64,000 nucleotides of DNA from Tenacibaculum dicentrarchi. GTDB taxonomy: Bacteria > Bacteroidota > Bacteroidia > Flavobacteriales > Flavobacteriaceae. The notes beneath the pieces are model-generated. The model had not been told where the DNA came from and did no database searches. It worked only from the letters and a program-made list of their open reading frames with translations. The position numbers and the translations under genes are program-made. The stretch covers positions 1,412,001-1,476,000 of the forward strand of contig NZ_OZ038524.1 in assembly GCF_964036635.1 (NCBI RefSeq), read 5' to 3'. Below are positions 3,117 through 64,000 of this stretch, piece by piece (the stretch's first letter is position 1; the number at the start of each line of letters is the position of its first letter).

Positions 3117-3202
3117 TCCCTAGCCCCGATTGTAGCATTTGTTTGAGCTCTTTTTTGATTTTTCTTCAAAAAAAGCGAGTGCGGAAAGCGGGAAATAGCT
3201 CC
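3117..3202 (+). repeat. Structured intergenic repeat, family A, copy 1 (RNA-like)
   Basis: Contains TAGCCCCGATTG, then TTTGTTTGAGCTCTTTTTT, an A/T hairpin, AAAAAAAGCGAGT and GCGGAAAGCGGGAAATAGCT. Outer CCCG can pair with CGGG and the inner GAGCTC/T-run with A-run/GCGAG, giving a long hairpin. Nearly the same sequence is at 22215-22299 (opposite strand), and a relative at 23354-23446. It begins 26 bases past the stop of the minus-strand permease gene. It may be a structured RNA or 3'-end element; the Rfam Flavo-1 family is a candidate I cannot test. Confidence 0.7.
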
Positions 3203-7811: not shown

Positions 7812-7842
7812 AACATCGCCAAGTATGAAATTTGGCGATGTT
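7812..7842. promoter_or_regulatory. 11-bp perfect inverted repeat at the head of the Jet cassette
   Basis: AACATCGCCAA (7812-7822) and TTGGCGATGTT (7832-7842) are exact reverse complements around a 9-base loop. It is the only GC-containing palindrome in a very AT-rich leader and ends 25 bases before the preferred jetA start; an earlier in-frame ATG (7838) lies inside its right arm. It could be an operator for a repressor or an mRNA hairpin that limits translation. It lacks a clean T-run, so a terminator is less likely. Confidence 0.55.
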
Positions 7843-7867
7843 TAAATTGCTGAAAAAAATTTGGTTT

Positions 7868-9064
7868 ATGAATACTTTTAAGAATATAAAAGAATTAGTA
7901 TCTATTCTTTATCGAGAAGAAAAATTGCTTTCTGAAATGTTTAGTAAACGAAAATTGCTTCATTATAAAAAAAGTTACGCTTTAGATATTGTTGATAATG
8001 ATGAATCGAAAATTAATTCCCTTTTAGAATTATCGGTACTTCGAGAGAATGATAATTGTTTAGAAATAGATGATGTATTTCTTGATTTTTTTGAAAAAAT
8101 ACTAGAAGTTAATGAAGAAATAAATGTTTCTTTTATTGATGAAAATATTACAGAAATAAAAGAACGAATAATTTATTATCTTGAAGTAAAGAATGAAAAA
8201 CAAAAAAATAATCATCTAAAATTCATCAAAAAAACCTTTCGTAAAATAGGCAATATCACGCTACGAAATGTAATCGATATACGACGAAATATCGAAAATA
8301 CCTTTAAAAATGAACCTAATTATAAAGTCAAAAAATTAAAATTAAAAAGCCTCGATGAAAAAAGAGACACTATTAAAAAATTAATTGACAAAACATTAAG
8401 CTTAATCAATACAGAAGAAATTACGTTTTTTGAACAAGCAAAAGACGAAGAATTAAATCAGATTCTTATCGATTTAAAATATAATTTAAGTGACTGTTCT
8501 CACAATCTTATTGCAATTCAAAAACAGATAATTAATTTCTTAAATCAAATAAAACATCAAGGCGAGTTTTTAGAAAAATTACGAAAAATAAAATATTTAA
8601 AAGACCAATTTCGAATTAAATCGGAAACCGATATTCAAAAAAATTTTTCCCTTAAAAATGACGTAATTTTTGAAAAACGTATTTCAGAACCGCTAAATTT
8701 ATCGATTGATTTTTTAAGAGATGATGAAAATGCTTTTACGATTATTAAAAAAATTGCAAGCAAAAACCTCGATAAACTACATTATAAACCGCTAATTGCC
8801 GATAGTATTTCTGATGAATATTTAGAAAATAGTATCGAACAAGAAGTGATGATAAATTTAGAGGAAATACGAAATGAATTTGTAGGAACAAGCGATAATC
8901 TTTTTAATTTCATTCTTAATTACGATTTTTTAAAAGAAGTTGATTTTAACGAGCGTGTTACTATTTTTTGTCAAGTAGCTTCACAATTTGAATTAGAGTT
9001 AAAATTCGAAAATGAATATCAAAAAAATAATGGGATTGAATATGCTTTAATTTATCCGAAATAG
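7868..9064 (+). CDS. Wadjet/Mks kleisin-like subunit (JetA/MksF-like)
   Basis: A 398-residue, mostly helical, charged protein, first in the cassette. Start ATG 7868 (MNTFKNIKEL) is preferred; ATG 7838 and TTG 7832 lie in a hairpin. Residues ~1-100 look like a winged-helix region, ~100-270 long helices that could form the kleisin neck and dimer contacts, and ~330-398 a second small winged-helix-like end. This matches the plan of MukF/MksF/JetA kleisins, which bridge SMC heads. Sequence identity to known JetA is not evident to me; the assignment rests on gene order with the MukB-like and TOPRIM genes. It should load onto DNA with the next three products to extrude and cleave small circular DNA. 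Confidence 0.65.
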   Translation: MNTFKNIKELVSILYREEKLLSEMFSKRKLLHYKKSYALDIVDNDESKINSLLELSVLRENDNCLEIDDVFLDFFEKILEVNEEINVSFIDENITEIKERIIYYLEVKNEKQKNNHLKFIKKTFRKIGNITLRNVIDIRRNIENTFKNEPNYKVKKLKLKSLDEKRDTIKKLIDKTLSLINTEEITFFEQAKDEELNQILIDLKYNLSDCSHNLIAIQKQIINFLNQIKHQGEFLEKLRKIKYLKDQFRIKSETDIQKNFSLKNDVIFEKRISEPLNLSIDFLRDDENAFTIIKKIASKNLDKLHYKPLIADSISDEYLENSIEQEVMINLEEIRNEFVGTSDNLFNFILNYDFLKEVDFNERVTIFCQVASQFELELKFENEYQKNNGIEYALIYPK

Positions 9065-9109
9065 AGAAAAATAAAAATTCAAAAAAAAGACTAAAAAAAA
9101 GACTAAAAA

Positions 9110-9691
9110 ATGCTATCAAAACACACCGCTACTATTTTTGAAACACTAAGAAAAGGACACTTTATAAGTTCAAATAGCCCGAATGAAAAAATAAAAACAT
9201 TGTATAAAATTTTAGACGATGAAGAAACTTTTGAGCAATTATACGAGTATTTTTATCCTATAAATTACATTTTAGAACAAGGCGATGACTATTTTTATTT
9301 TAGTCGTCCTGGTGAAAAAAACATTGATTTAGAACGGAAAATAAACAAAGCCTTTGAATGGATTGATATTTTAGATTTCTTTAAAACCTACGATTCTTCT
9401 TTTGATGTCGGTGTTCGATTTACAGCATCAGAAATTGATAGTCAATTAAAAAATAACGCCGATTTAAAAAATAAATTGAAAAACTTAAAAGGAATCGGTA
9501 AGGAAAATAAGGAAATAAAAACACTGGATAGCATTAAAAAAATAATCGACAAATTAGTAAAAGATAACTATATAAGTCTCGAAAATGAATTGACAGAAAC
9601 TTATAAAGTTCTTACTTCTTTCCACTATTTAAAAGACCTTATCGATAGTATTAATATTCCTCAAGAAACTGAAAATGAAATACCTGAATAA
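9110..9691 (+). CDS. Wadjet/Mks winged-helix subunit (JetB/MksE-like)
   Basis: A 193-residue protein, size and position of MksE/JetB (MukE-like, tandem winged helices that bind the kleisin). The first ~85 residues (TATIFETLRKGHFIS, ILDDEETFEQLYEYF, LEQGDDYFYFSR) resemble a winged-helix module, and the rest a second helical module. The region before the start has two copies of AAAAAAGACTA, an A-rich leader typical of ribosome binding here. The stop codon lies 17 bases inside the next gene, implying translational coupling with the SMC subunit. Function is inferred from context. Confidence 0.65.
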   Translation: MLSKHTATIFETLRKGHFISSNSPNEKIKTLYKILDDEETFEQLYEYFYPINYILEQGDDYFYFSRPGEKNIDLERKINKAFEWIDILDFFKTYDSSFDVGVRFTASEIDSQLKNNADLKNKLKNLKGIGKENKEIKTLDSIKKIIDKLVKDNYISLENELTETYKVLTSFHYLKDLIDSINIPQETENEIPE

Positions 9692-12600
9692 AATAATTTT
9701 TATAAATAGTGCCTCTGTAAAATATGCAGAAATAGGGCTCAACGGAAATGTACATTTAATAGGAACGCAAGGAGTTGGAAAAAGTACGCTTTTACGTGCT
9801 ATTTTATTTTTCTATAACGCCAACAAAAATAAATTAGGAATCCCTAGTAAAAAGAAACGTTTTGATGATTATTATTTTGAATATCAGAACTCTTACATTA
9901 TTTATGAAGTGATAAAAGACAACATTCCTTTTTCTATTTTAGCATATAAAGTAAATGGAAAAGTGGCGTTTCGTTTTTTTAAATCGGAATATAAAAGAAC
10001 ACTTTTTATCGACCAAAATGGAAAAGCTGAAAATTGGGAAGGAATTAGACGTAATTTCGGGAAAGATATTCATTACACTAAAATAATATCGAGCTATGAG
10101 GAATATCGAAAAATATTATATGGCGACAATAAAAGTTTAAATTCTGAATTTAAACAGTATGCTTTGATGGATAGCAAACAATATCAAAATATCCCTAGAA
10201 CCATACAAAACGTACTGCTAAACGCTAATTTAGAAGCCAAAGATATTAAAGATACGATTATTAGTTCTATTAGCGAAAATGAATTTAAAATAGATATTGA
10301 AAATTATTCCAAAACTCATTTAAAAGATTTTGAAACCCAAATAAAGGATATTAATCTTTGGTTTAAAAAAAATAGAAAAGGTGAAATAACGATTAGAAAT
10401 CAAGCAGATAAAATTATTAACACGTATCAAACACTAAATTATTTAAAAAAAGATACACTAAAATTAACCGTCAATTTAGCCAATAGATTGCAATATATTA
10501 AAAATGAAAACCCTAATTTATTTGTTAGTTTATCGAACGAAAAAAATACGCTGAGTATTTTATCGGATAAAACCGAAAATTTAAAAAATGTACACAAAAA
10601 AAGAGAACAAAATATAATTTCTGACATAAAAGTTCTTGACCAAAAAATAAAAGAAGCCAAACAAAAATTAATAAAATACGAAAATCAAAATATTTATACC
10701 TTAATTGAAAAAGTTGCCCAAAAAGATACGCTGACAAATGAAAAAGAAGCCAAAATAAATGAAAAACAACTTTTAACATCCCAATTTTCAGGAATAACAG
10801 AAAAGTATAAAAATTTAATTTCACAAAATAAAAATCAATATAAAGAATTTGAAAATGATAAAAATGCCGAAATTAACAAGGCTGAAAGTACTTTTTCAGA
10901 TGAAAAATTGGCAATTGATACTTTTTATAATGATGTAATCGCTAAAATAAAATTAGCGAATCAAGAAGAAATTACAAAAAACAATAATGAACTAAAATTG
11001 CTTATCGATAATGAAAATAACATCAAAAGAAAAAAAGCCGAATTAAAACATAAAATTTTCTTTGACGATGAAATAAAAAATTGCAAAAACGTAAAAACTA
11101 CATTAAAAAAAGAAATTTCAGATGCTAAAACTGAAATTTCTAACGCTAATAAAGAAATAAAAATTGTTCGTAAAGAATGGGAATTAGAAGAAGTAAAAAT
11201 TAACGAAAAAGTCAAAAATATTCTTGAAAAAAAACAAGAAAATCAACAAAAAAATTCAACTGAAATTACACAGATTCAAAACAATCTGAAAGAAAATAAA
11301 TCGTCTTTATATGGTTGGCTAAATGATACCATTCCTAACTGGGAAAATACCATTGGAAAAGTCATTGACGAAAAAAATGTACTTTTTCAAACCAATTTAA
11401 ACCCCAAAAAACTAGAATTAACCAAGAAGTTAGATGAAAATACCACTAATTTTTTTGGCATTGAACTGAATTTAAATGCTATTGATAATCGCATTAAAAC
11501 AGTTGAAGAATATCAGCAAGAAATAGAAAACTTAACACAAAAAAATGTCGATATTCAAAATGAAATTGATAAAATTAACGAAGAAAAAAACAACGATTTA
11601 AAGAATCTGAAAATAAAATTTAGGAAAAAATTAAGTATTTTAAATGATTCTATCTCAGAAAATGAATACATAATTTCTAAAAATAATCAAAAGTTAAAAA
11701 CGAATAAAATTACGCTAGATGAGTGGATAGAAAAATCTGCTTCAGAAAAAACAAAAATTCTCCAAGAAAAAGAAGAGTCTTTAGATAAAATTTATAGCGA
11801 AAAAGATACGTTTACCACAAATTTAGAACGCATCGAAAAAGCAATTGCTCGTGAAATATCGACCAAAAACAATAAAAAAAAGACCGAAATAGATAGCATT
11901 GAAAATATAAAAAACACAGCTATTCAAAAATATAAAAATTCGATTTCAAAAGAAAAAACAACCTCCGACAACAGAATTAAAGAACTTGAAAAACAACAAA
12001 ATTCGGAACTAGAAACCAAAGGAGCAGACAATAAAAGAGTATCAGAAATTGAAAAAAGAGTATCGGAAATTGAAAAAAAATTAACTTTTATCAAAGAAAA
12101 TGAAACATCGGTAATCGAATATCAAAAAGATAAACGAGAACTTTTTGATAAAGTTCCCGAATTTAAAATATCAAAAGCTGATTTCGTAAAAAAACAAGAT
12201 TCTTTAGTAAAAGAACAAAAAATTGAACAACATAAATTTGATAAAAAAGTTAAACATCAACAAGAAGAAGTTCAAATTATTGATGCTAAAATAAAAGAAT
12301 TTAATACTGATCTAGAAGCTTTCAAAGATTTTAAAACAACAGATGCTTTTTCAAGTATAGAAGATTATTTTTCAAAAGAAATTCAAAAAAACAATACAGA
12401 AACAAACACTTCTAAAACAGGTATTTCAGCCGTTTTAATTATAGAAGAATTAACTCAAAAATATTACGGAAGTATTCAGAAACTTAACGATTTAAAACAA
12501 AATATCAATTTATTTACAGGGAATTTTGAAGAACAAAATATTTTTAAATTTAAAATAAATCTTAATGAAGATACTGAATTTTATGATTTTGCAATCACAT

Positions 12601-13409
12601 TAAAAGAATTTATAAACGAAGATAAAATAAAAGAATTTGAAAAACGAGTGAATGAACACTTTGCCAGTATTGTTGAGCAAATCGCTAGAGATACCAAAGA
12701 AATTATATCGAAAGAAGCCGAAATTGAAAAAACTATCCGAAAAATAAATACTGATTTTAGAACTAAAAACTTTGTTGAAGCTATCAAAAACATGGAAATG
12801 AGAACTCAAGAAAGTTCGAATCCTATTGTAAAATTATTAATTGAAATCAAAAATTTTAATGATGAAAATAGTGATTTATTAGGCATAGAAAATTTATTTA
12901 CAACAAACGAATCGGGAAATAAAAACAATAAAGCCATCGATTTATTAAAACTATTAGTCAAAGAAATCAATAAATCAAAAAAATCAAGTTTAACACTTTC
13001 AGAATCTTTTGATTTACAATTCAGAATTGTTGAAAATGATAATGATTCTGGTTGGGTTGAAAAATTATCGAACGTAGGAAGTGAAGGAACAGATGTTTTA
13101 GCAAAAGCAATGATTAATATTTCTCTTTTAAATGTGTTTAAAAACAATGCGTCTAAAAAAGATGAAAGCTTTAAATTGCATTGTATGATGGACGAAATTG
13201 GTCGATTACATCCAAATAATATAAAAGGAATTTTAGGCTTTGCCAATCAAAGAAATATCTTGTTAATTAACGGCTCGCCAACAAGTCAAAACGCTACCAA
13301 TTATAAATATACCTATCGATTATCTAAAGAACAATCAAAAACTGACCGTAAAAAATACATCACAAAAATTACACAATTAGTAAAAGTAACCGCAAAAGTT
13401 CTTAATTAA
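9675..13409 (+). CDS. SMC/MukB-like ATPase of a Wadjet-type system (JetC/MksB-like)
   Basis: A 1244-residue SMC-like ATPase. Walker A is GTQGVGKST (residues 30-38); the ABC signature is GSEGT (1135-1139, in NVGSEGTDVLAKAMINIS); Walker B is CMMDEIGRL with D1173-E1174, followed by LLINGSPTS. Residues ~270-1000 are almost pure Lys/Glu/Asn coiled coil broken near the middle, with no CxxC zinc hook, so a MukB-type hinge rather than Rad50. The GSxGT signature is typical of the MukB/MksB/JetC branch. In Wadjet the SMC dimer extrudes DNA loops on plasmids. It overlaps jetB by 17 bases and is 11 bases before jetD. Confidence 0.82.
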   Translation: MKYLNKIIFINSASVKYAEIGLNGNVHLIGTQGVGKSTLLRAILFFYNANKNKLGIPSKKKRFDDYYFEYQNSYIIYEVIKDNIPFSILAYKVNGKVAFRFFKSEYKRTLFIDQNGKAENWEGIRRNFGKDIHYTKIISSYEEYRKILYGDNKSLNSEFKQYALMDSKQYQNIPRTIQNVLLNANLEAKDIKDTIISSISENEFKIDIENYSKTHLKDFETQIKDINLWFKKNRKGEITIRNQADKIINTYQTLNYLKKDTLKLTVNLANRLQYIKNENPNLFVSLSNEKNTLSILSDKTENLKNVHKKREQNIISDIKVLDQKIKEAKQKLIKYENQNIYTLIEKVAQKDTLTNEKEAKINEKQLLTSQFSGITEKYKNLISQNKNQYKEFENDKNAEINKAESTFSDEKLAIDTFYNDVIAKIKLANQEEITKNNNELKLLIDNENNIKRKKAELKHKIFFDDEIKNCKNVKTTLKKEISDAKTEISNANKEIKIVRKEWELEEVKINEKVKNILEKKQENQQKNSTEITQIQNNLKENKSSLYGWLNDTIPNWENTIGKVIDEKNVLFQTNLNPKKLELTKKLDENTTNFFGIELNLNAIDNRIKTVEEYQQEIENLTQKNVDIQNEIDKINEEKNNDLKNLKIKFRKKLSILNDSISENEYIISKNNQKLKTNKITLDEWIEKSASEKTKILQEKEESLDKIYSEKDTFTTNLERIEKAIAREISTKNNKKKTEIDSIENIKNTAIQKYKNSISKEKTTSDNRIKELEKQQNSELETKGADNKRVSEIEKRVSEIEKKLTFIKENETSVIEYQKDKRELFDKVPEFKISKADFVKKQDSLVKEQKIEQHKFDKKVKHQQEEVQIIDAKIKEFNTDLEAFKDFKTTDAFSSIEDYFSKEIQKNNTETNTSKTGISAVLIIEELTQKYYGSIQKLNDLKQNINLFTGNFEEQNIFKFKINLNEDTEFYDFAITLKEFINEDKIKEFEKRVNEHFASIVEQIARDTKEIISKEAEIEKTIRKINTDFRTKNFVEAIKNMEMRTQESSNPIVKLLIEIKNFNDENSDLLGIENLFTTNESGNKNNKAIDLLKLLVKEINKSKKSSLTLSESFDLQFRIVENDNDSGWVEKLSNVGSEGTDVLAKAMINISLLNVFKNNASKKDESFKLHCMMDEIGRLHPNNIKGILGFANQRNILLINGSPTSQNATNYKYTYRLSKEQSKTDRKKYITKITQLVKVTAKVLN

Positions 13410-13420
13410 TAATATAAAAA

Positions 13421-14269
13421 ATGAAATTAGCTCTTAAAACAGCAAAAATACTAATACGGCTAATTGCTGGTGAAAAAGTGACTGCAAGTTCTGCTAAAAG
13501 TAAATTAATCGACGATTTAATTGCTGAAAATATTCTATGGACAAAGGGAAAACATCATAAAACAATACACCTTAAAAATGAAAAAGCATTAATCACCTAT
13601 ATTTCAAATCAATTAGAAATTAATGATTTAGAAAATTATATTTCGGCTTCAGAAAACGAAAATACAACTCGTGCCGATTTTGTTAAAATTACTACGGATT
13701 CAAAAAACTCAAAAGAAAGAGCTTTTAAAGGTTTTTTAATCAATAGTTACACGCCTATTAAAGCCAAATTAAATAATCAAGAATTCATTATACATCCAAC
13801 AATTGGAAGTTTTATTTTTATCTCTGATTTTGAAACTTTTAAAATACCTAAAAACACGATTATTATTGGTGTTGAAAATTCTAGAAATTTTAGACATATT
13901 CACGAGCAAAAATATTTATTTAAAGATATAAATGCTCTTTTTATTTCTCGCTATCCACAAAATCAAAATAAAGATTTTATAAAATGGATGCAATCTATTC
14001 CTAATAATTACCTGCATTTTGGCGATTTTGATATTGCAGGTATTGGAATTTATATCAATGAGTATAAAAAACATCTTACTGAAAAAGCAACATTTTTTAT
14101 TCCTAAAAACATTCAAAAAGCAATACACGAAAACGGAAATAGAGACCGATATAATATTCAAAAAATGAATTTTGATATAAAAAATATTCAAGAAAATGAA
14201 TTATTAAAACTTATTCAAATTATTAATATCGAAAAAAAAGGTTTAGACCAAGAATTTTATATTCTTTAA
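13421..14269 (+). CDS. TOPRIM nuclease subunit of a Wadjet-type system (JetD/MksG-like)
   Basis: A 282-residue protein with a winged-helix-like N-terminus (LKTAKILIRLIAGEKVTAS...) and a C-terminal TOPRIM domain. The TOPRIM glutamate is E152 in IGVENSRNF and the DxD pair is D202/D204 in HFGDFDIAGIGIY; GLDQEFYIL near the end resembles the LEQE tail of JetD proteins. JetD is the topoisomerase VI-like subunit that cleaves DNA after loop extrusion stalls. At 282 residues it is about 100 shorter than the JetD proteins I know, mainly at the N-terminus. Last gene of the cassette; ends 72 bases before the convergent recG stop. Confidence 0.75.
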   Translation: MKLALKTAKILIRLIAGEKVTASSAKSKLIDDLIAENILWTKGKHHKTIHLKNEKALITYISNQLEINDLENYISASENENTTRADFVKITTDSKNSKERAFKGFLINSYTPIKAKLNNQEFIIHPTIGSFIFISDFETFKIPKNTIIIGVENSRNFRHIHEQKYLFKDINALFISRYPQNQNKDFIKWMQSIPNNYLHFGDFDIAGIGIYINEYKKHLTEKATFFIPKNIQKAIHENGNRDRYNIQKMNFDIKNIQENELLKLIQIINIEKKGLDQEFYIL

Positions 14270-14341: not shown

Positions 14342-16918
14342 CTAACTAATATTACTCCAAAGCCCGTTTGATTTTTGTAATTGCGTATAGACTTTCAATA
14401 GATTTGCATTTTCATGTTTCGAAAAAGTTGCATCATTTTCTAAAACAGCGATTGCGGTTTGACGGGCTTTTTGTAGGATTGCCGTATCTTTTACCACATC
14501 GGCAATTTTTAGGTTTAATACACCACTTTGTTGCGTTCCCATAATATTTCCAGGACCTCGAAGTTTTAAATCTACCTCAGCAATTTTAAAACCATCGGTG
14601 GTATCGACCATGGTTTGTAAACGGGTTTTACTATCGGATGACAATTTAAAACTCGATAATAAAATACAATAACTTTGCGAAGCTCCACGCCCTACTCTAC
14701 CTCGCAATTGATGCAATTGACTCAAGCCAAAACGCTCGGCACTTTCAATAACCATTACCGAGGCATTTGGTACATTTACGCCAACTTCAATTACCGTTGT
14801 TGCTACCATTATTTGAGTTTCGCCTTTTATAAAACGATTCATTTCAAATTCTTTATCGGCAGGTTTCATTTTTCCGTGAACGATACTTATTTGATATTTT
14901 GACGATGGAAAATCTCTCGAAATACTTTCGTAGCCGTCCATTAAATCTTTATAATCCATCGCTTCCGATTCTTCAATTAACGGATACACCACATACGCCT
15001 GTCGCCCTTTGTTTATCTCATCTTTCAAAAATTTAAAAACCGATAAACGATTACTATCATACCGATGCACCGTTTTAATTTCCTTACGCCCTGGCGGTAA
15101 TTCATCAATTACAGAAATATCTAAATCACCATAAACCGACATGGCTAAAGTTCGTGGAATTGGTGTTGCTGTCATCACCAAAACGTGTGGTGGAATTGAT
15201 TTTTTTACTGCAACGGTAGGCAAACTATTTAAAGTTGCAATGATTCTTTTTATTGTTTTATCTAGTATATTTTCAAAATTATTTTCAAGGTTATTTTTTA
15301 AGCTATTTTCAGGCGAATTTAAAATTTGATTTTCATCTAACCGAACCACTTTATAACCGAATGCAGTTAGAATTTCGGTACGCAAATTCATGGCTTCTTG
15401 CTGTTTTTCGGTCGTGTGATATTTTCCTATAACCTCTATAATCAGTTTTTTTTCTAGGCAGATAAAATCAATTAAAAAATCTTCAATAAGATAATATCTT
15501 CGGAATTTAAAACCCGTTTGTTTATTTTTTAAAACTTCCCACAAAGCTCTTTCTGCTTTCGATGTTCTGTTTTTTCGTTTAAAGGCAATTTCTTTAATTA
15601 ATTGATACGAATCTGAATTTTCATCCTTATATTTTTGATGAATATTTCTACCTTTTTCATTCAGAATTACAGGCGGTTGATTTTTCTGCCATAATTTAGA
15701 ACGCTGTGCTACCCCAAAGCGATGTTGCTCATCAATAATAGCGATTCCTAAATTTTTAAATAATACTTTATCTTCTAAAACAGCGTGTGTTCCTACCAAA
15801 ATATGTATTGATTTATCTTCTAAACCTGTATGAATTTCACGTCTTTTTCTAATTCGGGTTGAACCTGTTAATAATTCAACTTTTATCGTTGTTCCTTCTA
15901 AAAGCTCCGTAATTCCGTTATAATGCTGAATCGCTAAAATTTCAGTTGGCGCCATAATTGTTGCCTGATAGCCGTTATCAATTGCAATTAACATACTTAA
16001 CAACGCTACAATTGTTTTTCCTGACCCCACATCGCCTTGCAATAAACGATTCATGTGTTTTCCTGAACCCACATCTATTCTGATTTCTTTTAACACTCTT
16101 TTTTGAGCATTTGTTAATTCAAAAGGTAATTTATTAGTGTAAAAATCGGTGAAATTCTCGCCTATTTTTTCAAAAACAGCACCTTTTATTTTTGATTTTC
16201 GGATGCGTTTTTTCTGTAATAATTGAATTTGAATAAAAAATAATTCTTCAAATTTTAAGCGATATTGTGCTTTTGCTAATAATTCTTGATTCTTAGGAAA
16301 GTGAATATTTAATAAGGCTTCTTTTTTAGCTAATAAATTATTTTCTTCGGATACATAATCAGGTAATGTTTCTTCTATTTGCTGAATTATTTCTTTGAAA
16401 AGTTCTTGAATAAAACCACGCAAAATTTTATTGGTAATTCCTTTATTTGCTAATTTTTCTGTCGATGGATATACAGGTTGCATCGCCGTTTGAAGCTTAC
16501 TTTTATACTCTTTTAAAGTTTCCATTTCAGGATGTGGCATATTTGCCCGACCGTTATACCAATTTAATTTTCCATAAATCACATACGGAACATCGGTTTT
16601 TAAGCTGTTTTTTATCCATTTAGCACCTTTAAACCACACCAAATCTAAAAAACCTGTGCCGTCAGAAAAAGTTGCCACTAGCCTACTTCCTCGTTTTTGT
16701 TCAATTTCTTTAACGGCTGTTATTTTACCAACTATTTGAACCTCAGCAGCGTTTTGTACTAATTGATTAATCGGATAAAACTGGGTTTTATCAATATAAC
16801 GAAACGGAAAAAGATGTAATAATTCATTACAAGTTTTTATCCCTAATTCAGTAAATAATAATTCTGCTCTAGCTACACTAACGCCTTTTATATATGTTAT
16901 CGGATGATTTAAATTCAT
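14342..16918 (-). CDS. recG: ATP-dependent DNA helicase RecG with an inserted DUF559 domain
   Basis: RecG remodels stalled replication forks and branch-migrates junctions. Seen: N-terminal wedge/OB region (residues ~1-250), Walker A GDVGSGKT (295-302), DEQH box (396-399), then MTATPIPRT and HQLRGRVGRG in the second helicase domain. Length is 858 rather than ~700: about 155 residues (417-574) interrupt the core between QRSKLWQKN and IPPHVLVMTATP. The insert holds a DUF559/Vsr-like nuclease domain (E456 in SKAERALW, D484 in LIDFICLE, E495 in IIEVIGKYH, later RTEILTAFGYKVVRLDE). The usual IEVDG aspartate is Ile497. Without the insert the protein is a normal RecG. It is 10 bases downstream of the SH3 gene. 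Confidence 0.93.
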   Translation of the reverse strand: MNLNHPITYIKGVSVARAELLFTELGIKTCNELLHLFPFRYIDKTQFYPINQLVQNAAEVQIVGKITAVKEIEQKRGSRLVATFSDGTGFLDLVWFKGAKWIKNSLKTDVPYVIYGKLNWYNGRANMPHPEMETLKEYKSKLQTAMQPVYPSTEKLANKGITNKILRGFIQELFKEIIQQIEETLPDYVSEENNLLAKKEALLNIHFPKNQELLAKAQYRLKFEELFFIQIQLLQKKRIRKSKIKGAVFEKIGENFTDFYTNKLPFELTNAQKRVLKEIRIDVGSGKHMNRLLQGDVGSGKTIVALLSMLIAIDNGYQATIMAPTEILAIQHYNGITELLEGTTIKVELLTGSTRIRKRREIHTGLEDKSIHILVGTHAVLEDKVLFKNLGIAIIDEQHRFGVAQRSKLWQKNQPPVILNEKGRNIHQKYKDENSDSYQLIKEIAFKRKNRTSKAERALWEVLKNKQTGFKFRRYYLIEDFLIDFICLEKKLIIEVIGKYHTTEKQQEAMNLRTEILTAFGYKVVRLDENQILNSPENSLKNNLENNFENILDKTIKRIIATLNSLPTVAVKKSIPPHVLVMTATPIPRTLAMSVYGDLDISVIDELPPGRKEIKTVHRYDSNRLSVFKFLKDEINKGRQAYVVYPLIEESEAMDYKDLMDGYESISRDFPSSKYQISIVHGKMKPADKEFEMNRFIKGETQIMVATTVIEVGVNVPNASVMVIESAERFGLSQLHQLRGRVGRGASQSYCILLSSFKLSSDSKTRLQTMVDTTDGFKIAEVDLKLRGPGNIMGTQQSGVLNLKIADVVKDTAILQKARQTAIAVLENDATFSKHENANLLKVYTQLQKSNGLWSNIS

Positions 16919-22214: not shown

Positions 22215-22299
22215 GAAGCAATTTCCCGCTTTCCGCACTCGCTTTTTTTGTTTGAAAAAAACAAAAAAGAGCTCAAACAAAGCTTCAATCGGGGCTAGG
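22215..22299 (-). repeat. Structured intergenic repeat, family A, copy 2
   Basis: Minus-strand copy of the 3117-3202 element: read on minus it has CTAGCCCCGATTG, TTTGTTTGAGCTCTTTTTT, an inner A/T hairpin, AAAAAAAGCGAGT and GCGGAAAGCGGGAAAT. It lies about 100 bases upstream of the thioesterase start. The 22113-22611 gap otherwise holds the family B element and a hairpin. Confidence 0.72.
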
Positions 22300-22403
22300 C
22301 ATTTGTACTAATTTCAAACCATTCGATTCTTTTGATTGTAACCTGTAACTCTTTTAAATTCTGTTTAAATTCTTACATTCTATTATAAAAACTCAAAACA
22401 ACC

Positions 22404-57337: not shown

Positions 57338-60300
57338 TTATCTGTATAAAGTAAAGTGCCCCATTAATTTTTTCTCTTCACCTGATAATTCATTGTAATA
57401 AATGGTGTACCAATAATCTCCTGCTGGTAATGGTTTCCCTTGGTAAGTTCCGTCCCATCCTTGAGTTAATCCTTGGTAGTTTTGAATTTTACGAGCATAT
57501 CTGTCATAGATATACACTTTTATATTGTGATAATTTTCTACTTCTAAAGGATACCAGAAATCGTTAATTCCGTCACCATCAGGGGTAAATAAATTCAATA
57601 CGCTTATACTTACATATTTTCCTGTTACAAGTAGCATTACCTCACAACCTCTAGCATCGGTTACTTTAATTTCATATTCTTTGGTTTGTAAAATGGTAAA
57701 CTCATTGTCTTGTCCATAATCTACTCCGTCAAGAGTAAAGTTATATGGCGGTAAACCAAAATTAACATTGGCTATTAATTTATTTTTCTTAGAATCGTCA
57801 ATAGTCATTGCTAATGCTTGAATGTCTTGAATATCAAATTCATCCGTAGAAGTTTCTGTACAAGTAGAAGCAGTATGCGTTGCCGTTACTTTATAACTAT
57901 CGCCTGATGTTACATCTATAAACTCACCTGTTGTATTGGTTAAAGGAGCATTTATACCGTTATCTAAAGTAAAAATTACATCGTCTTTATATTTATCAGC
58001 AACCATTGCTTTAACAATGTTTCCTGATTCACAAACATATTCAAAATCGACGGTTACTTGTAAATCAATAGCTTCTGTTGTTGTTTGTGTACCTAACCTT
58101 GCTACTGAACAACCTTTATCTTTTCCTCGAACGCTAATCGAATACTTTTTTCCTGCTTTAATTCCTTCATTTGCTCCTAAGGTAATTTGATTTAGAAAAT
58201 ATGGAACTAGCAATTCATCATTGTTTATACTGATGTAATATGGCTGTGTTCCTCCTGTAACATTAACTGTTATTGTTGGTGTTGCATCATTAATACAAAC
58301 TTGTTGAGTTATCGCTACTGCGGTTATATCTATATTATTTGGTTGTTTAACAGTTACCTCTATAGCTGCTTGTGTACAACCTCTAACATCTTTTACAGTT
58401 ACATAATATGTACCTGCTTTTAAGTTTGTAAATACGCCATCTTGAACAAATTTATTTGCAGGATATTCAAAACTTGCGGGATCTGAAACAATATTATATT
58501 CATAGTGTTTAGTTCCACCTGTTGCCGATGCTGTAATAATACCTGTACTTCCACCATTACAGGTTACATGCTGTGTAACCTTTACATCAGGAATTAAAAT
58601 TTTTGGTTCTTCTATTTTGTGCTTATTTGTGGTTTCCATTTCACAAACTTCACCAAACCTATTGGTACTTCTTACCTTAATTTTATAGGTTGCTGGTGTT
58701 AAGCCTGAAAAAGTATTTGAGGTTTGCCAAACTCCTGTAATTGCTACACCATTTCCTGCTAATAACTGATATTCATAATTTCCAAAACCACCTGTTACTG
58801 TTGCCGATAACACTCCGTTGCTATCATCTTTACAAGTAATAAAACCTAAATCTACATTTAAAGTTGCTTTTAAAGGCACATATTCAGCAATTGTAGCGGT
58901 TGTTGTTGTTACACACTGCTCAGTATCTTTTACATAAAATGTATTTACCCCTGGGTTAAGCCCTGTAAAAGTATAAGTAGTACTTGCTGATGCTGTATAA
59001 TTAATTCCATCGGTACTAAATTCGTAAGGTGCTTTTCCACCACCTGCTGTAACCTCAACGCTTGCTGTTGGAATATCACAAGTAATATCTTCTGTAATAT
59101 TTACAGATGATATTGTTACTTTATTAGGATCTTTAATTTCAACCTTAACATTTTCTAAAGGTCCTGTAGCACAACCGTATTTATTATCAATCACTCTTAT
59201 TTGATAATTTCCTGCTTGTAAGCCTGTAAAAATATTTGAGGTTTGCTCTAATTCTAATCCACCTAATTCAGTCGGATATTTTAAAATATAACTGTAAATT
59301 CTTATTGAAGTATCTTGCGTTTGCCCGCCACCAGTTACGTTTACTTCAATACTCGCATTTTTTTCACCTTCACAAACATTATTTTTAACTTCAGTTTTCA
59401 CAGTTAATTGTACTCCTTTCACTAATACAAAACTACGAGTTGCTTCACAGTTATTAATATCTCTTACCGTTGCAGTATAGTTTCCTTCTTCTAATTTCTC
59501 AAATTTATTATTTTTACTAAAAGGTTTTACTATACCTGCTGTTGCTTCTTCTAATTGATATTCATAATTACCCCAACCGCCATCGGCTTTTAAAATAATA
59601 CCTCCTTTGCCAGAATTACAACTGATAAACGTTACAATACTACTGTCTAAGTTTAATTCAGGTTGCGTTGGTGGTTCGTTTATGGTAAAATCTTTAGATA
59701 AAACATCACATCCAGGAGCATCGGTCATCGTTACTTTTACTTTATAAGTTCCTGCAGTTAAGCCTGAAATCATATTTTGAACTCCGCCTGTTCCGTTTCC
59801 TGTAGAATAAACATTTCCTGTTGTTCCATTTACATCTACAACTTCATAAGTATAAGCGCCTGTATAATCAGCATCTGCAATAATAGTTTCAATATCTAAA
59901 GTTACTGTTGCTGTTGCTGCATCTGCTGCTGCATCAAAACAAGTTCTTCGAGTATCGCCAATTTTGATATTAAATGTTGGTTTATCTTTTACAGTATGAC
60001 TTGTTGTGAATATACAATCTGTTGCTGGGTTTGTAATTGTTATGGTATAAACATCAGGATCTAAACCTGTAAATGTTGCAATACCTGTTGTTTTTGTATC
60101 AGTATAAGTTGTGTTCGTTCCTTTTATCGTATAAGTTAAGTTTGCGATATTAGGGTTTGCTTTTACAGTAATTGTTTCTTTATTGGTACAATCTAATTTT
60201 TGAATTATTTTAATTTCTGCATCTCCTATTTTTTGAAAAGCATCAATAGGAACTGTTGTTGTTGCTGATGAACAATTTTGTGCATCGTAAACCGTAATTG

Positions 60301-63300
60301 TAACAGTTCCTGCTTTAATATCGTTATTATTATTAACAATATTAAAGGTCAAATCATTTTCATCTTGTTCAATATCATCCGTAGCATCTAAAGGTGTTCC
60401 GTTATCATACACAAATACGATTCTGTTAATATTTTGAACTCCTCCAGGAACTGTTCCGCCATTAATTGCATCTGTAACAGTTACCGTTGCCATATTTGTT
60501 TGGTTAGTTCCTGTTGTACAAGCAAATTGCGTTACCGATATTTTATTGATATCAATAGTAATTTCTGATTTTTCAACAATCGTTACATCTTTATTTTTTA
60601 TACAGCCGTTTGTTCCTTTTCCTGTAATAGTATAATTTCCTGCCGATAATCCTTCAAATTTATTTGTTGTTGGATTGAAAGTTCCACTATATGCAATTGC
60701 ATTAGTAGGATCCGATGTTATCGTATATGTTAAAGGATTAGCTCCGTTTGGAATATAAATAACACCATCAGAACTTCCGTTACAAATATTATTTACAAGT
60801 ATTTTTGGTTCAAAATCTGGTACTAATTTATCATAAACTATAAAATCTTTTGTAATTGAATTACAGGTACTTTCTGCTTTATTGTCTGTAATTTTCAGAA
60901 TATACGTTCCTGCATCTGCGATGCTAAAAGTTGGGGGCGTTGTTTTTATAACTGCAACTATGTTAGTCGCATCATTTTTATCAACAACTGAATAATCGAA
61001 ATCACCACTTCCGCCTGTTACATTTATGATATACTCTGCATTTTCAGTAGTTGTTCCATCAGGTTGACAGGTTAATTTACCCGGCGTTAAATAAAACTCA
61101 AGTTCAGGATAAACTGTTACGACATCTGCATTTACTATTTCAGGAGTTCCGACACATCCTTTTACATCATTTACGCTTACCGTATAATCTTCGTTATTAT
61201 TTACAGATAAATTTTCAAAAGTATGTGTTAAAGAAGTTGTTTTAATACTTTCTTCGATTCCTGCACTATCTTTTAATGTATAAATATATTCCCCTGAACC
61301 TCCTTGTGCGGTTACTTTAATTGCTGGTTTTGTATCTGAACAAATATTTGCAATCATTTCTGTTTTAAAAGTAACTGGTTTTGGGTTTACTATAATTTGC
61401 TCTTTAGAATATACGTTGTCACATCCTAAAACATCTTTTACCTGAACTTTATAAGTTCCCTCAGGTAAGTTTTTAAAGATGTTATTGCCTTTATTATTTG
61501 CAAAATTAATATCAACTGATGAGGCATCTTTTACAACTTCATAAATATTTGTTGTCGTATTTTTTATTTCTAATTGATATTCATAATTACTTCCCCAACC
61601 GCCTGTTGCTGTTGCAGTAATTGTTGCATTGTTATCGTTATTACAAGTTATTTCTGATGAAATTTCTGCTGTTACTTTTAATTCTCCTGCTGGAGCATCT
61701 TCAATTTTAAATACTGCGGATGTAAAACTACACGCTGTAGCATTATCAATATCTGTAATTTTCACAACGTAACTTCCCGCTTTTAAACCTGAAATTGTAA
61801 GCGGGTTTGTTGTTCCTGTTGCTGGTTGTACATTTCCTGATTTTACAGGTGTTAATGAATTTCCAATCGAGTTGAAAACTTCATAATCATACTTTCCTAT
61901 ATAAAATGCTGATGTAAATGCGTTTCCTTTTTGAACATCTATAACCACGCTTCCTGTTGCCGAACCTACACAAGTTGTGTTTTCAACATCAGAATAAAGA
62001 ACATTATAAACTGGTTCTTTAATTGTATAGGTTTTCGTTATTATACAGTTTGTTATTGGATGTGTAATTGAAACTTCATAATCTCCTAAAGGTAATTTAT
62101 CAAAAACTACTCCACTACCATCTTGTGGTCTTGGTAATTTTTTAGACAAAATACTTCCATCAAGCTTTGTTATTTCAATAAAAATAACAGGAGCTATTGA
62201 AGCGTCTAAATTATCTAATTTAACAGTAACACTTTGCTTATCAACTTCACAAGTTGGTGTATGTGATATTTGAATATCGCTTGGTAGTATCGGTGCAAAA
62301 GCAGGGATAGTAACTGTTTTTATATCTGAATCACAACCTTGGTCATCTGTAACTTTAATTTTAACTGTTCCTCCTAAAACATTATCTGTAGTAAATGTAG
62401 AATCTAAAATTGGTGCTTCTGCTGTTCCGCCTGTTGGCGTAAATATAAATTCTACATTGTAATTTTTATTTACATCTCCGTTTCCGCCTGAAATTTGATT
62501 TTTATCAACAGTTATCGTTGCCTTTGGGTTTGCTACATCACAATTATAAGTAACGTTCTGTATTGCATTTACTCCAATTGTAACTTTATCTAATTGCTCA
62601 ATTTTTACATCTTTAGATGTCGGACATTCGTTATCTCCTTTTGCTGTTATTGTATAAGTTCCTTTTGGTAAACCTGTGAAAGTTCTTTTTGCTGTATTAA
62701 AAGTTTCTTGAGCAGAAGTTAACGTTCCGCCATTTAAACTTATTGTATAAGTTACAGGATTCACTTCTGCTATAAAAACTTCATTAACCGTAATTACGCC
62801 ATCAGAACTACCAAAACAAATATTATTTGTTGTTGCTTTTAGATTAAAATCTGGCTGTGCAGGTTCATTAACAGTAAACGTTCTTGTTATTGGATTTAAA
62901 CAATTACCTATTGCTCCTGTATCTGTAATAGTTACAGTATATGTTCCTGCTTCGTTTGTTTTAAATATTTTTGGACTCGTAAAAGTTGTTGTTGCTAGCT
63001 CTTCAATATCTCCAGATACTTCATTTTTAACAATTCCATAGGTAAAAGTTCCACTTCCTCCGCTTGCAACGATATTAAACGTTACCTCATCTGTACTAAC
63101 ACATGTTAATAAATCTGTAGAGGTTGGTGTTGGGAAATCAATATTTTCAAAAATTTCTAGTGTATCATTTCCTGATGTTTTTACAGTTCCGTTACACTGG
63201 TTTGTATCTTTTACTGTTACCGTATAATTTGCTGCTGGTAAATTTGTAAATGTGTAATCTGCTGTAACTCCTGTTTGTGTTCTTACTATTGCAGGAATTG

Positions 63301-64000
63301 TATCATCTGTTAAAACATAGGTATAAGTTCCTGTTCCGCCAGAACCTGTTACTGTAATTTCTCCACCGATTTTATTATCACAAGCAGTATCATCTTTTGA
63401 TACTGTAAATTCTACTTTCTTTGGATTTTCTACTTCTACCTCATCAACAGATTCAACATCACAACCTAAAGCATCTTTTACTTGAACTTTATAAGTTCCT
63501 GCAGGTAAGTTTTTAAAGATGTTGTTGCTTCCGTTATTTGCAAAATCATAAATAACATCAGCTCCTAAAGCATCTTTTACTGTAATAGCAGTTCCCAAAT
63601 TATCTTCCAATTGATATTCATAAGAACTATTCCAACCGCCTGTTGCTGTTGCAGTAATTGTTCCATCTTCTTGCCCAATACAACTTACTTTTGTTGGTGT
63701 TCCTGTTACACTTAAATCATCTGTTGGTTCTTTAATTTCAAAGACTTTATATATTGGCAAACAATTTGGAGAATCCGTCATCGTAATTTTAACGGTGTAA
63801 TTCCCTGCTTTTAAATTTGAAATTGTTTGCTCTCCATTAACTCCTGTTACTTTTATTGGAGGATTAAATGAATTTTTTGATTCATCCAATACTTCATAAT
63901 CATAAGCACCTGTATAAGGTAATGCTAATCCTGTTTCTTGAATATTTAAAATTGCAGTTCCTCTACCTCCTTTACAAGATACATTTACAGGGTTTGTAAT
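57338..64000 (-). CDS. Giant SprB-like adhesin with T9SS type B sorting domain (N-terminal part off window)
   Basis: The visible 2220 residues are the C-terminal part of a larger surface protein; the frame is open to base 64000 with no start. It consists of about 21 SprB-like beta-sandwich repeats of 85-105 residues, each starting with a Cys and carrying patterns such as GxITATATGGWxSxYEYQL and F..L.AGTYKVQVKDxxGC. The last ~90 residues (LFTPDGDGINDFWYP, IYDRYARKI, GWDGTYQGKPLPAGDYWYTIYY, GHFTLYR) are the type B sorting domain/gliding-associated C-terminal domain that sends the protein through the type IX system. Likely a cell-surface adhesin moving with the gliding apparatus. Next gene: PorP/SprF. 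Confidence 0.94.
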   Translation of the reverse strand: MTNPVNVSCKGGRGTAILNIQETGLALPYTGAYDYEVLDESKNSFNPPIKVTGVNGEQTISNLKAGNYTVKITMTDSPNCLPIYKVFEIKEPTDDLSVTGTPTKVSCIGQEDGTITATATGGWNSSYEYQLEDNLGTAITVKDALGADVIYDFANNGSNNIFKNLPAGTYKVQVKDALGCDVESVDEVEVENPKKVEFTVSKDDTACDNKIGGEITVTGSGGTGTYTYVLTDDTIPAIVRTQTGVTADYTFTNLPAANYTVTVKDTNQCNGTVKTSGNDTLEIFENIDFPTPTSTDLLTCVSTDEVTFNIVASGGSGTFTYGIVKNEVSGDIEELATTTFTSPKIFKTNEAGTYTVTITDTGAIGNCLNPITRTFTVNEPAQPDFNLKATTNNICFGSSDGVITVNEVFIAEVNPVTYTISLNGGTLTSAQETFNTAKRTFTGLPKGTYTITAKGDNECPTSKDVKIEQLDKVTIGVNAIQNVTYNCDVANPKATITVDKNQISGGNGDVNKNYNVEFIFTPTGGTAEAPILDSTFTTDNVLGGTVKIKVTDDQGCDSDIKTVTIPAFAPILPSDIQISHTPTCEVDKQSVTVKLDNLDASIAPVIFIEITKLDGSILSKKLPRPQDGSGVVFDKLPLGDYEVSITHPITNCIITKTYTIKEPVYNVLYSDVENTTCVGSATGSVVIDVQKGNAFTSAFYIGKYDYEVFNSIGNSLTPVKSGNVQPATGTTNPLTISGLKAGSYVVKITDIDNATACSFTSAVFKIEDAPAGELKVTAEISSEITCNNDNNATITATATGGWGSNYEYQLEIKNTTTNIYEVVKDASSVDINFANNKGNNIFKNLPEGTYKVQVKDVLGCDNVYSKEQIIVNPKPVTFKTEMIANICSDTKPAIKVTAQGGSGEYIYTLKDSAGIEESIKTTSLTHTFENLSVNNNEDYTVSVNDVKGCVGTPEIVNADVVTVYPELEFYLTPGKLTCQPDGTTTENAEYIINVTGGSGDFDYSVVDKNDATNIVAVIKTTPPTFSIADAGTYILKITDNKAESTCNSITKDFIVYDKLVPDFEPKILVNNICNGSSDGVIYIPNGANPLTYTITSDPTNAIAYSGTFNPTTNKFEGLSAGNYTITGKGTNGCIKNKDVTIVEKSEITIDINKISVTQFACTTGTNQTNMATVTVTDAINGGTVPGGVQNINRIVFVYDNGTPLDATDDIEQDENDLTFNIVNNNNDIKAGTVTITVYDAQNCSSATTTVPIDAFQKIGDAEIKIIQKLDCTNKETITVKANPNIANLTYTIKGTNTTYTDTKTTGIATFTGLDPDVYTITITNPATDCIFTTSHTVKDKPTFNIKIGDTRRTCFDAAADAATATVTLDIETIIADADYTGAYTYEVVDVNGTTGNVYSTGNGTGGVQNMISGLTAGTYKVKVTMTDAPGCDVLSKDFTINEPPTQPELNLDSSIVTFISCNSGKGGIILKADGGWGNYEYQLEEATAGIVKPFSKNNKFEKLEEGNYTATVRDINNCEATRSFVLVKGVQLTVKTEVKNNVCEGEKNASIEVNVTGGGQTQDTSIRIYSYILKYPTELGGLELEQTSNIFTGLQAGNYQIRVIDNKYGCATGPLENVKVEIKDPNKVTISSVNITEDITCDIPTASVEVTAGGGKAPYEFSTDGINYTASASTTYTFTGLNPGVNTFYVKDTEQCVTTTTATIAEYVPLKATLNVDLGFITCKDDSNGVLSATVTGGFGNYEYQLLAGNGVAITGVWQTSNTFSGLTPATYKIKVRSTNRFGEVCEMETTNKHKIEEPKILIPDVKVTQHVTCNGGSTGIITASATGGTKHYEYNIVSDPASFEYPANKFVQDGVFTNLKAGTYYVTVKDVRGCTQAAIEVTVKQPNNIDITAVAITQQVCINDATPTITVNVTGGTQPYYISINNDELLVPYFLNQITLGANEGIKAGKKYSISVRGKDKGCSVARLGTQTTTEAIDLQVTVDFEYVCESGNIVKAMVADKYKDDVIFTLDNGINAPLTNTTGEFIDVTSGDSYKVTATHTASTCTETSTDEFDIQDIQALAMTIDDSKKNKLIANVNFGLPPYNFTLDGVDYGQDNEFTILQTKEYEIKVTDARGCEVMLLVTGKYVSISVLNLFTPDGDGINDFWYPLEVENYHNIKVYIYDRYARKIQNYQGLTQGWDGTYQGKPLPAGDYWYTIYYNELSGEEKKLMGHFTLYR
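59621..61645 (-). repeat. Seven-domain super-repeat of the adhesin, copy 2
   Basis: From Cys of CNNDNNATITATATGG to Cys of CNSGKGGIILKADGG (59618-59620), 2025 bases, 675 codons. Domain order repeats that of copy 1 (for example CFGSSDGVITV and CNGSSDGVIYI as fourth domains). A third, partial copy begins at 59620. Confidence 0.75.
61646..63682 (-). repeat. Seven-domain super-repeat of the adhesin, copy 1
   Basis: Runs from the Cys of CIGQEDGTITATATGG (codon 63680-63682) to the equivalent Cys of the next copy (61643-61645), 2037 bases, 679 codons. It holds seven SprB-like domains in a fixed order; the last has GKYDYEVF, which pairs with GAYTYEVV in copy 2. Confidence 0.75.

Follow-up and report, generated by a model that had tools for sequence, protein, structure and literature searches.

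A DUF559 nuclease domain lodged in frame within RecG of Tenacibaculum dicentrarchi is probably the remnant of a palindrome-bounded mobile element

We analyzed a stretch of 64,000 nucleotides from the genome of Tenacibaculum dicentrarchi (contig NZ_OZ038524.1, positions 1,412,001 to 1,476,000; the whole stretch is called the window below), in which the helicase gene recG carries an additional nuclease-like domain. recG is a single open frame of 858 aa and the insert falls between helicase motifs II and III (Table 1). RecG profiles and the structure of T. maritima RecG (1gm5) match on both sides of the insert and skip the middle (3-413 and 579-821 for 1gm5), and the Pfam family DUF559 (PF04480) matches residues 447-543 with an E-value of 1.5e-22 and 80 bits, the curated cut-off being 20.6. 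Measured against the uninserted recG genes of the genus, the insert comprises 161 residues and leaves a RecG of 697; the minimal junction KLWxK-N-x-x-PH is common to 46 of the 62 uninserted genes. A first-pass annotation made from the letters of the window had already recognized a DUF559 insert at this place, in frame and devoid of an intein splicing part, and our results bear this out, although its bounds (15195-15661, about 155 residues with some 704 remaining) need to be shifted. No Hint or intein family matched the RecG protein (Pfam, E 0.1), no Rfam family, and hence no self-splicing intron of that collection, reached its gathering score in recG, and the insert translates straight through. 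RecG proteins named T. dicentrarchi and T. piscium, found by protein search, also have the insert, and Aequorivita todarodis carries one at the identical recG site. Because the insert recurs in these organisms, chance or misassembly is ruled out, and the in-frame DUF559 insert inside RecG is confirmed.

The fold predicted for the insert is of the PD-(D/E)xK / Vsr-like type, with the DUF559 protein 3hrl, the catalytic domain of the homing endonuclease I-Bth0305I and Vsr as its best matches. In a family alignment of 50 sequences D484 and E495 occupy invariant columns and E456 one that is at least 90% conserved, which agrees with the pattern residues named in the first-pass annotation. The insert retains E456, D484, E495 and H501, but a further Asp column, likewise conserved to at least 90%, holds Ile497, leaving the near-invariant acidic set incomplete. 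The model of the whole RecG protein, insert included, is weak (predicted local distance difference test, pLDDT, 73; predicted template modelling score, pTM, 0.44); fold searches with it gave helicase-type matches only.

recG was compared across 86 of 97 genomes of the genus (some of the 11 left out had fragmentary matches). The insert is present in 24 of the 86 genes, always at one spot, and absent from 62; all 24 copies are in frame throughout and 147-163 residues long. On a recG tree built with the insert cut out, 16 insert changes are needed, at least 12 of them on the starred branches, and clean empty sites adjoin filled ones (G034/G037, G052/G087, G079/G004). A survey of RecG had been proposed together with the initial reading; its patchy outcome speaks against uniform vertical inheritance across the recG genes of the genus. 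The insert phylogeny rejects the recG topology (approximately unbiased test, p 1e-5 and 2e-4), the deep splits being concordant. At synonymous sites the insert of one clade has diverged roughly four times less than the recG that carries it: between G027 and G017, G022 and G078, synonymous divergence (dS) is 0.21-0.23 for the insert and 0.81-0.88 for the host gene, and for G022/G027 the drop is restricted to the insert and ends at its edges. Compared by eye with the empty site of G043, the RecG junction of G029 shows no loss and no duplication of the target; at other junctions a few codons differ. In a test for scars of former inserts, the 16 uninserted genes with longer junctions were not significantly closer to inserted ones than the 46 clean genes (p 0.12); G006, with a leftover right-hand palindrome, and G055 are remnant-like single cases. 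Taken together, the RecG inserts of the genus behave in a homing-like manner, being patchy at a single site and spreading horizontally apart from the host gene, which does not apply to the window's own clade (G000, G018, G008). There, insert dS (0.18-0.30) lies near host dS (0.27-0.33) and therefore indicates vertical descent. The ratio of nonsynonymous to synonymous divergence (w) is 0.14-0.26 for the insert and 0.08-0.10 for the host recG, and the window's insert is under purifying selection.

Inserts with recognizable palindromes, which we call young, open with an AGCCC(A/C)...TTCCCAAAGGGAA-type sequence and close with its inverse, ...CCTCCCCTTAGGGGAGGTTGGAGGGGCT. An end hairpin of at least 6 bp occurs in 15 of the 24 RecG inserts; the longest stems in the window's copy measure only 3 and 4 bp, and this copy lacks palindromic ends translated in frame. 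All 15 hairpin-bearing inserts keep the Asp, as against three of the nine others (p 6e-4, relatedness ignored; the hairpin test was chosen after a strict inverted-repeat test and includes a few hairpins outside the repeat family, in G093 and G004). This association fits the earlier suggestion that Ile497 is a sign of weakening. The replacements among hairpin-free inserts are Ile (all three members of the window's clade), Asn (G081, G012) and Glu (G087). With its palindromes eroded and its near-invariant Asp lost, the window's RecG copy looks like a fossil.

Palindromes of this kind also lie dispersed in the genus. The pattern CCYYCCCNNNGGGRRGG is present in 36 of the 97 genomes in up to 18 copies, its backward control in 0 genomes; the window's genome contains 0 matches. 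At 24 of 30 pattern loci (one per genome, four of them at RecG inserts) a AGCCCATCCTAACC-like tail stands on one side, compared with 0 of 30 random draws. With a hairpin repeat plus a one-sided tail, the palindromes are built like a repetitive extragenic palindromic (REP) element. The pattern occurs in 24 of 26 genomes with a strong DUF559 match (105 bits or more, a threshold set by us) and in 12 of the 71 others (p 8e-12). The link persists when relatedness is controlled (median p 0.004, range 0.001-0.07), but arises mostly through the inserts' own ends. Inverted repeats also surround DUF559 domains elsewhere. We compared the two 260-base flanks of 84 domains from 80 named-genome loci in inverted orientation against 200 shuffles (loci L201, L238 and L242 each counted more than once). 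The flanks beat all shuffles for 45 of 57 domains in frames below 250 aa and for 14 of 27 in longer frames, while two of 128 random positions, drawn from loci longer than 5 kb, did so. The short-frame genes bracketed in this way come from many phyla. A separate inverted-repeat shuffle test could be applied to 48 of 61 loci (the motif missed 13), of which 16 beat all 200 shuffles. At locus L167 two palindromes lie 191 bases apart, at positions 1500 and 1691, the first being read in frame as SPSLTLPKGKG; the frame resembles, by eye, a methylmalonyl-CoA mutase, and the pair is possibly a small non-autonomous insert.

The window's genome (2.8 Mb, one contig) contains two DUF559 matches, one in RecG and one in leucyl-tRNA synthetase (LeuRS), directly ahead of the motif TTRPDT. 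A search of the genome with the LeuRS editing family returned the LeuRS frame and, weakly, a second frame of 883 aa, which we take to be ValRS from its length. LeuRS thus looks single copy and must function with the DUF559 domain inside. Its domain reads EFSG in place of E-x-D-G. Filled LeuRS genes lack part of the loop that is present in empty ones. Matches of 62-88 bits, mostly in frames of LeuRS-like length (for example L003, 4824-8141), were observed in 47 of the 97 genomes and are perhaps an old decayed insert; the host was confirmed as LeuRS for the window's genome only.

DUF559 is found in 65 of the 97 genomes, and the 89 matches of at least 62 bits comprise 86 in long frames (598 aa or more) and three in short ones (below 170 aa). 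A sample of the phylum contains the domain in at least 171 of 296 genomes, with long and short frames among the matches listed. Three protein searches yielded 275 DUF559 proteins (39 of 39, and the best 120 of 210 in each of two), whose hosts were assigned by Pfam and by blastp to representatives; the counts are shaped by candidate length and query similarity and are no census. The hosts are chorismate synthase (97), LeuRS (72), RecG (27), an Lhr-type helicase (25), MetH (14), ValRS (13), guanylate kinase (9), methylmalonyl-CoA mutase (4), MetRS (3), IleRS, TsaB and an aminotransferase (2 each), as well as PriA, DnaE, a UvrD-type protein, an AddB-like protein and a PF20473 protein (one each). 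The named-genome loci, whose titles include Alphaproteobacteria, Methylomonas, Omnitrophota, Gracilibacteria and Gastranaerophilales besides Bacteroidota, add HsdM, an Eco57I-type enzyme, an ABC-F-like protein, an EPSP synthase/NUDIX frame, HisF and again PriA. One host, with the site WHTQGSGKS, is presumably HsdR, going by its motifs. The domain of guanylate kinase and HisF is situated close to the N terminus, where it may represent a fusion. All in all, the domain occurs in frame in roughly twenty further protein families. Twelve of the 275 proteins have at least two DUF559 domains; P0040, a MetH-type protein of 1702 aa, has three. A tree of 159 domains groups the inserts by host site (37 changes versus 119.8 for shuffled labels). 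RecG's 25 rows fall on one side of a branch with support 92, and those of LeuRS and MetH are spread across several groups; the tree drew 9 of the 27 listed RecG proteins, leaving aside P0035, a RecG with its insert at a different site.

We consider it quite likely, on comparative grounds, that the window's insert is an old, immobilized copy of a palindrome-bounded mobile nuclease element, one that resides in host genes without being spliced out and spreads by a homing-like route. The element would consist of a small PD-(D/E)xK nuclease frame (Vsr / I-Bth0305I-like) between inverted REP-like hairpin repeats. Active copies would sit in frame in loops of housekeeping proteins, would be translated with the host protein and never be spliced out in the cell, and would persist because the loop tolerates a compact added domain, the host enzyme presumably working normally. 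Spread would take place mainly among alleles of one gene across species, with new genes rarely entered: the nuclease would cut the empty allele and repair would then copy the element in. In the window's lineage the RecG and LeuRS copies would no longer be mobile, with the palindromes eroded and an active-site Asp lost, and the remaining RecG insert would be maintained by purifying selection, perhaps since RecG adapted to it. That such a mobile, splice-free, palindrome-bounded nuclease element exists is well supported by these comparisons. They likewise lend good support to one of the two proposals of the first-pass annotation, a nuclease gene invading, in frame, the conserved sites of essential genes, given the patchy recG and the hosts LeuRS, ValRS, MetH and chorismate synthase. 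That reading had noticed the insert itself; it had missed the LeuRS copy, the REP-like palindromes at young ends, the dispersed solo palindromes and the old, immobile look of the window's copy.

Several observations weigh against this interpretation. Textbook homing co-converts a flanking tract, whereas the recent transfer seen here left none in the flanks, and the genome that most clearly received the insert recently, G027, lacks an end hairpin of 6 bp. In the window's clade the insert has descended vertically with its host. The strict end-to-end inverted-repeat test was passed by only 8 of the 24 RecG inserts and its outcome had no link with the Asp (p 0.35). Palindromes in excess of two per DUF559 are associated with the domain (p 7e-5, uncorrected), but this loses significance once relatedness is taken into account (median p 0.45); eight palindromes occur in G015, which has no DUF559, and G025 and G057 have a strong DUF559 and no pattern match. 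Among 20 LeuRS proteins without the domain, 16 have a short loop (e.g. SFDVDGHDAKIDVFTT) and two have six residues more, and the loops of G015 (L263) and G028 (L273) hold longer peptides that are repeat-like by eye. As other peptides occupy it too, the LeuRS loop tolerates many insertions and site identity alone is no proof of target recognition, which suggests that permissive loops account for part of the site choice.

The DUF559 gene might instead be mere cargo of palindromes that resemble REPs or miniature inverted-repeat transposable elements (MITEs) and are moved by another enzyme, for instance a Y1 transposase of the REP-associated tyrosine transposase (RAYT) kind, with ordinary recG recombination doing the spreading. 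Palindromes do occur away from DUF559, one study describes REPs lying within repair and tRNA-synthetase genes (PMC3733652), and 46 of the 97 genomes have Y1_Tnp matches. These matches, however, are found in 21 of 36 palindrome-bearing and 25 of 61 palindrome-free genomes (p 0.14), and three genomes rich in palindromes, G001, G021 and G029, have none. Among the 51 genomes without a Y1_Tnp match, palindromes go together with strong DUF559 (p 2e-7, counting the inserts' own ends), and inverted palindromes bracket short-frame DUF559 genes in many phyla. Passive recombination would moreover bring flanks along, yet the low divergence stops at the insert edges. We regard the cargo explanation as unlikely, and Y1/RAYT enzymes as movers of the palindromes are rejected for lack of association among the 97 genomes, other transposases not having been searched.

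A functional helicase-nuclease fusion, in which the domain would partner RecG in fork processing, was the other proposal of the first-pass annotation. The purifying selection in the window's clade and the retention of the insert in several named isolates are what one would expect of it. The patchy occurrence at one site (24/86), the presence of the same domain in metabolic and translation enzymes without a DNA role (LeuRS, ValRS, MetH and chorismate synthase alike), and the loss of the active-site Asp in precisely the window's clade led us to reject a role in RecG, and we hold the fusion to be very improbable. Removal of the insert as an intein or intron is hardly credible: the position beside conserved motifs is intein-like and an intron-type homing enzyme has a fold similar to the one predicted for the nuclease, but the lack of Hint and Rfam families, the in-frame read-through of all 24 inserts and the purifying selection on the amino acids in the window's clade rule against both forms.

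Beside recG, an operon-like run on the plus strand (window 7832-14269) encodes a 410-aa protein without Pfam match, MksE (PF21980), a DUF3584 SMC-like protein with a weak JetC match and a DUF7281 protein; it is perhaps an MksBEF/Wadjet-like plasmid-defence locus. Two Flavo-1 RNA matches (RF01705) exceed the gathering score, at 22218-22300 (minus) and 3118-3199 (plus). The minus strand at 57338-63889 encodes a protein of 2183 aa in which SprB repeats are combined with a CHU_C type IX secretion signal domain.

Table 1. Layout of recG and its insert, in coordinates of the window
Feature	Position	Strand	Basis
recG with in-frame insert, 858 aa	14342..16918	minus	Open reading frame list, Pfam/RecG profile matches, structure 1gm5
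RecG residues 1-413 (wedge, OB fold, helicase motifs up to II)	15680..16918	minus	Profile and 1gm5 matches
Insert, residues 414-574	15197..15679	minus	Alignment with uninserted recG genes of the genus
DUF559 (PF04480) match, residues 447-543	15290..15580	minus	Pfam; predicted fold nearest 3hrl, I-Bth0305I catalytic domain, Vsr
E495-V496-I497, near-invariant Asp of the family replaced by Ile	15428..15436	minus	Family alignment
Left end of insert (QPPVILNEKGRN), position of the left palindrome of young inserts, palindromy lost	15644..15679	minus	
Right end of insert (SLPTVAVKKS), position of the right palindrome of young inserts (SLPSGEVGGA), palindromy lost	15197..15226	minus	
RecG residues 575-858 (motif III MTATP onward)	14342..15196	minus	Profile and 1gm5 matches

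According to a review, it is their association with self-splicing sequences that allows homing endonucleases to enter host genes of high conservation (PMC3943268). The nuclease genes described here seem to be lodged in conserved, often essential genes without splicing, the cost being a domain left in the protein. If correct, this would represent a further mode of protein evolution by domain insertion, provide a candidate autonomous enzyme for orphan palindromic repeats, and account for oddly long housekeeping enzymes named after DUF559 in databases; what mobilizes in-frame palindromic repeats becomes a directly testable question. We see an even chance for a broader generalization, namely that a class of mobile elements found throughout bacteria consists of DUF559 nucleases with inverted, REP-like hairpins at their ends, the autonomous partners of dispersed in-frame palindromic repeats, and that this class colonizes loops of essential proteins without splicing and homes between alleles, the RecG and LeuRS copies described here being domesticated fossils.

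Among known systems, I-Bth0305I is presented in the same review as a long multi-domain enzyme among the homing endonucleases of group I introns (PMC3943268), and a DUF559 gene has been assigned to the EDxHD homing family in another paper (PMC9403480). The RecG inserts differ from this EDxHD enzyme (structure 3r3p) in that they are 147-163 residues long, no splicing partner was found and they are read through into the host. VsrA of Caulobacter is likewise a DUF559 / Vsr-like endonuclease but has its own gene and a proposed mismatch-repair role, insertion into a host gene not being described in the accessible text (PMC12907096); the open-licence literature on DUF559, as far as its available text goes, contains no report of in-frame insertion into host genes, and reports elsewhere are possible. 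REPs, REPINs and the REPtrons of RAYTs are alike in having short hairpins tagged on one side, inverted pairs and a bracketed enzyme gene (PMC3733652, PMC3116915), and REPs are reported within replication, repair and tRNA-synthetase genes (PMC3733652), as the copies described here lie inside repair genes and tRNA synthetases. The bracketed enzyme is an HUH tyrosine transposase in the REPtron and a PD-(D/E)xK DUF559 nuclease here, the window's genome having no Y1_Tnp match, and the tail is GTAG in REPs as these sources give it and AGCCCATCCTAACC-like here. The Rickettsia palindromic elements come close in another respect, as they too are palindromic, selfish-looking DNA lying in frame in unrelated protein genes and translated (PMC10969869). 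They measure about 150 bp and contain a conserved peptide, a nuclease not being mentioned in the accessible part of that paper, whereas the palindromes described here enclose a nuclease frame.
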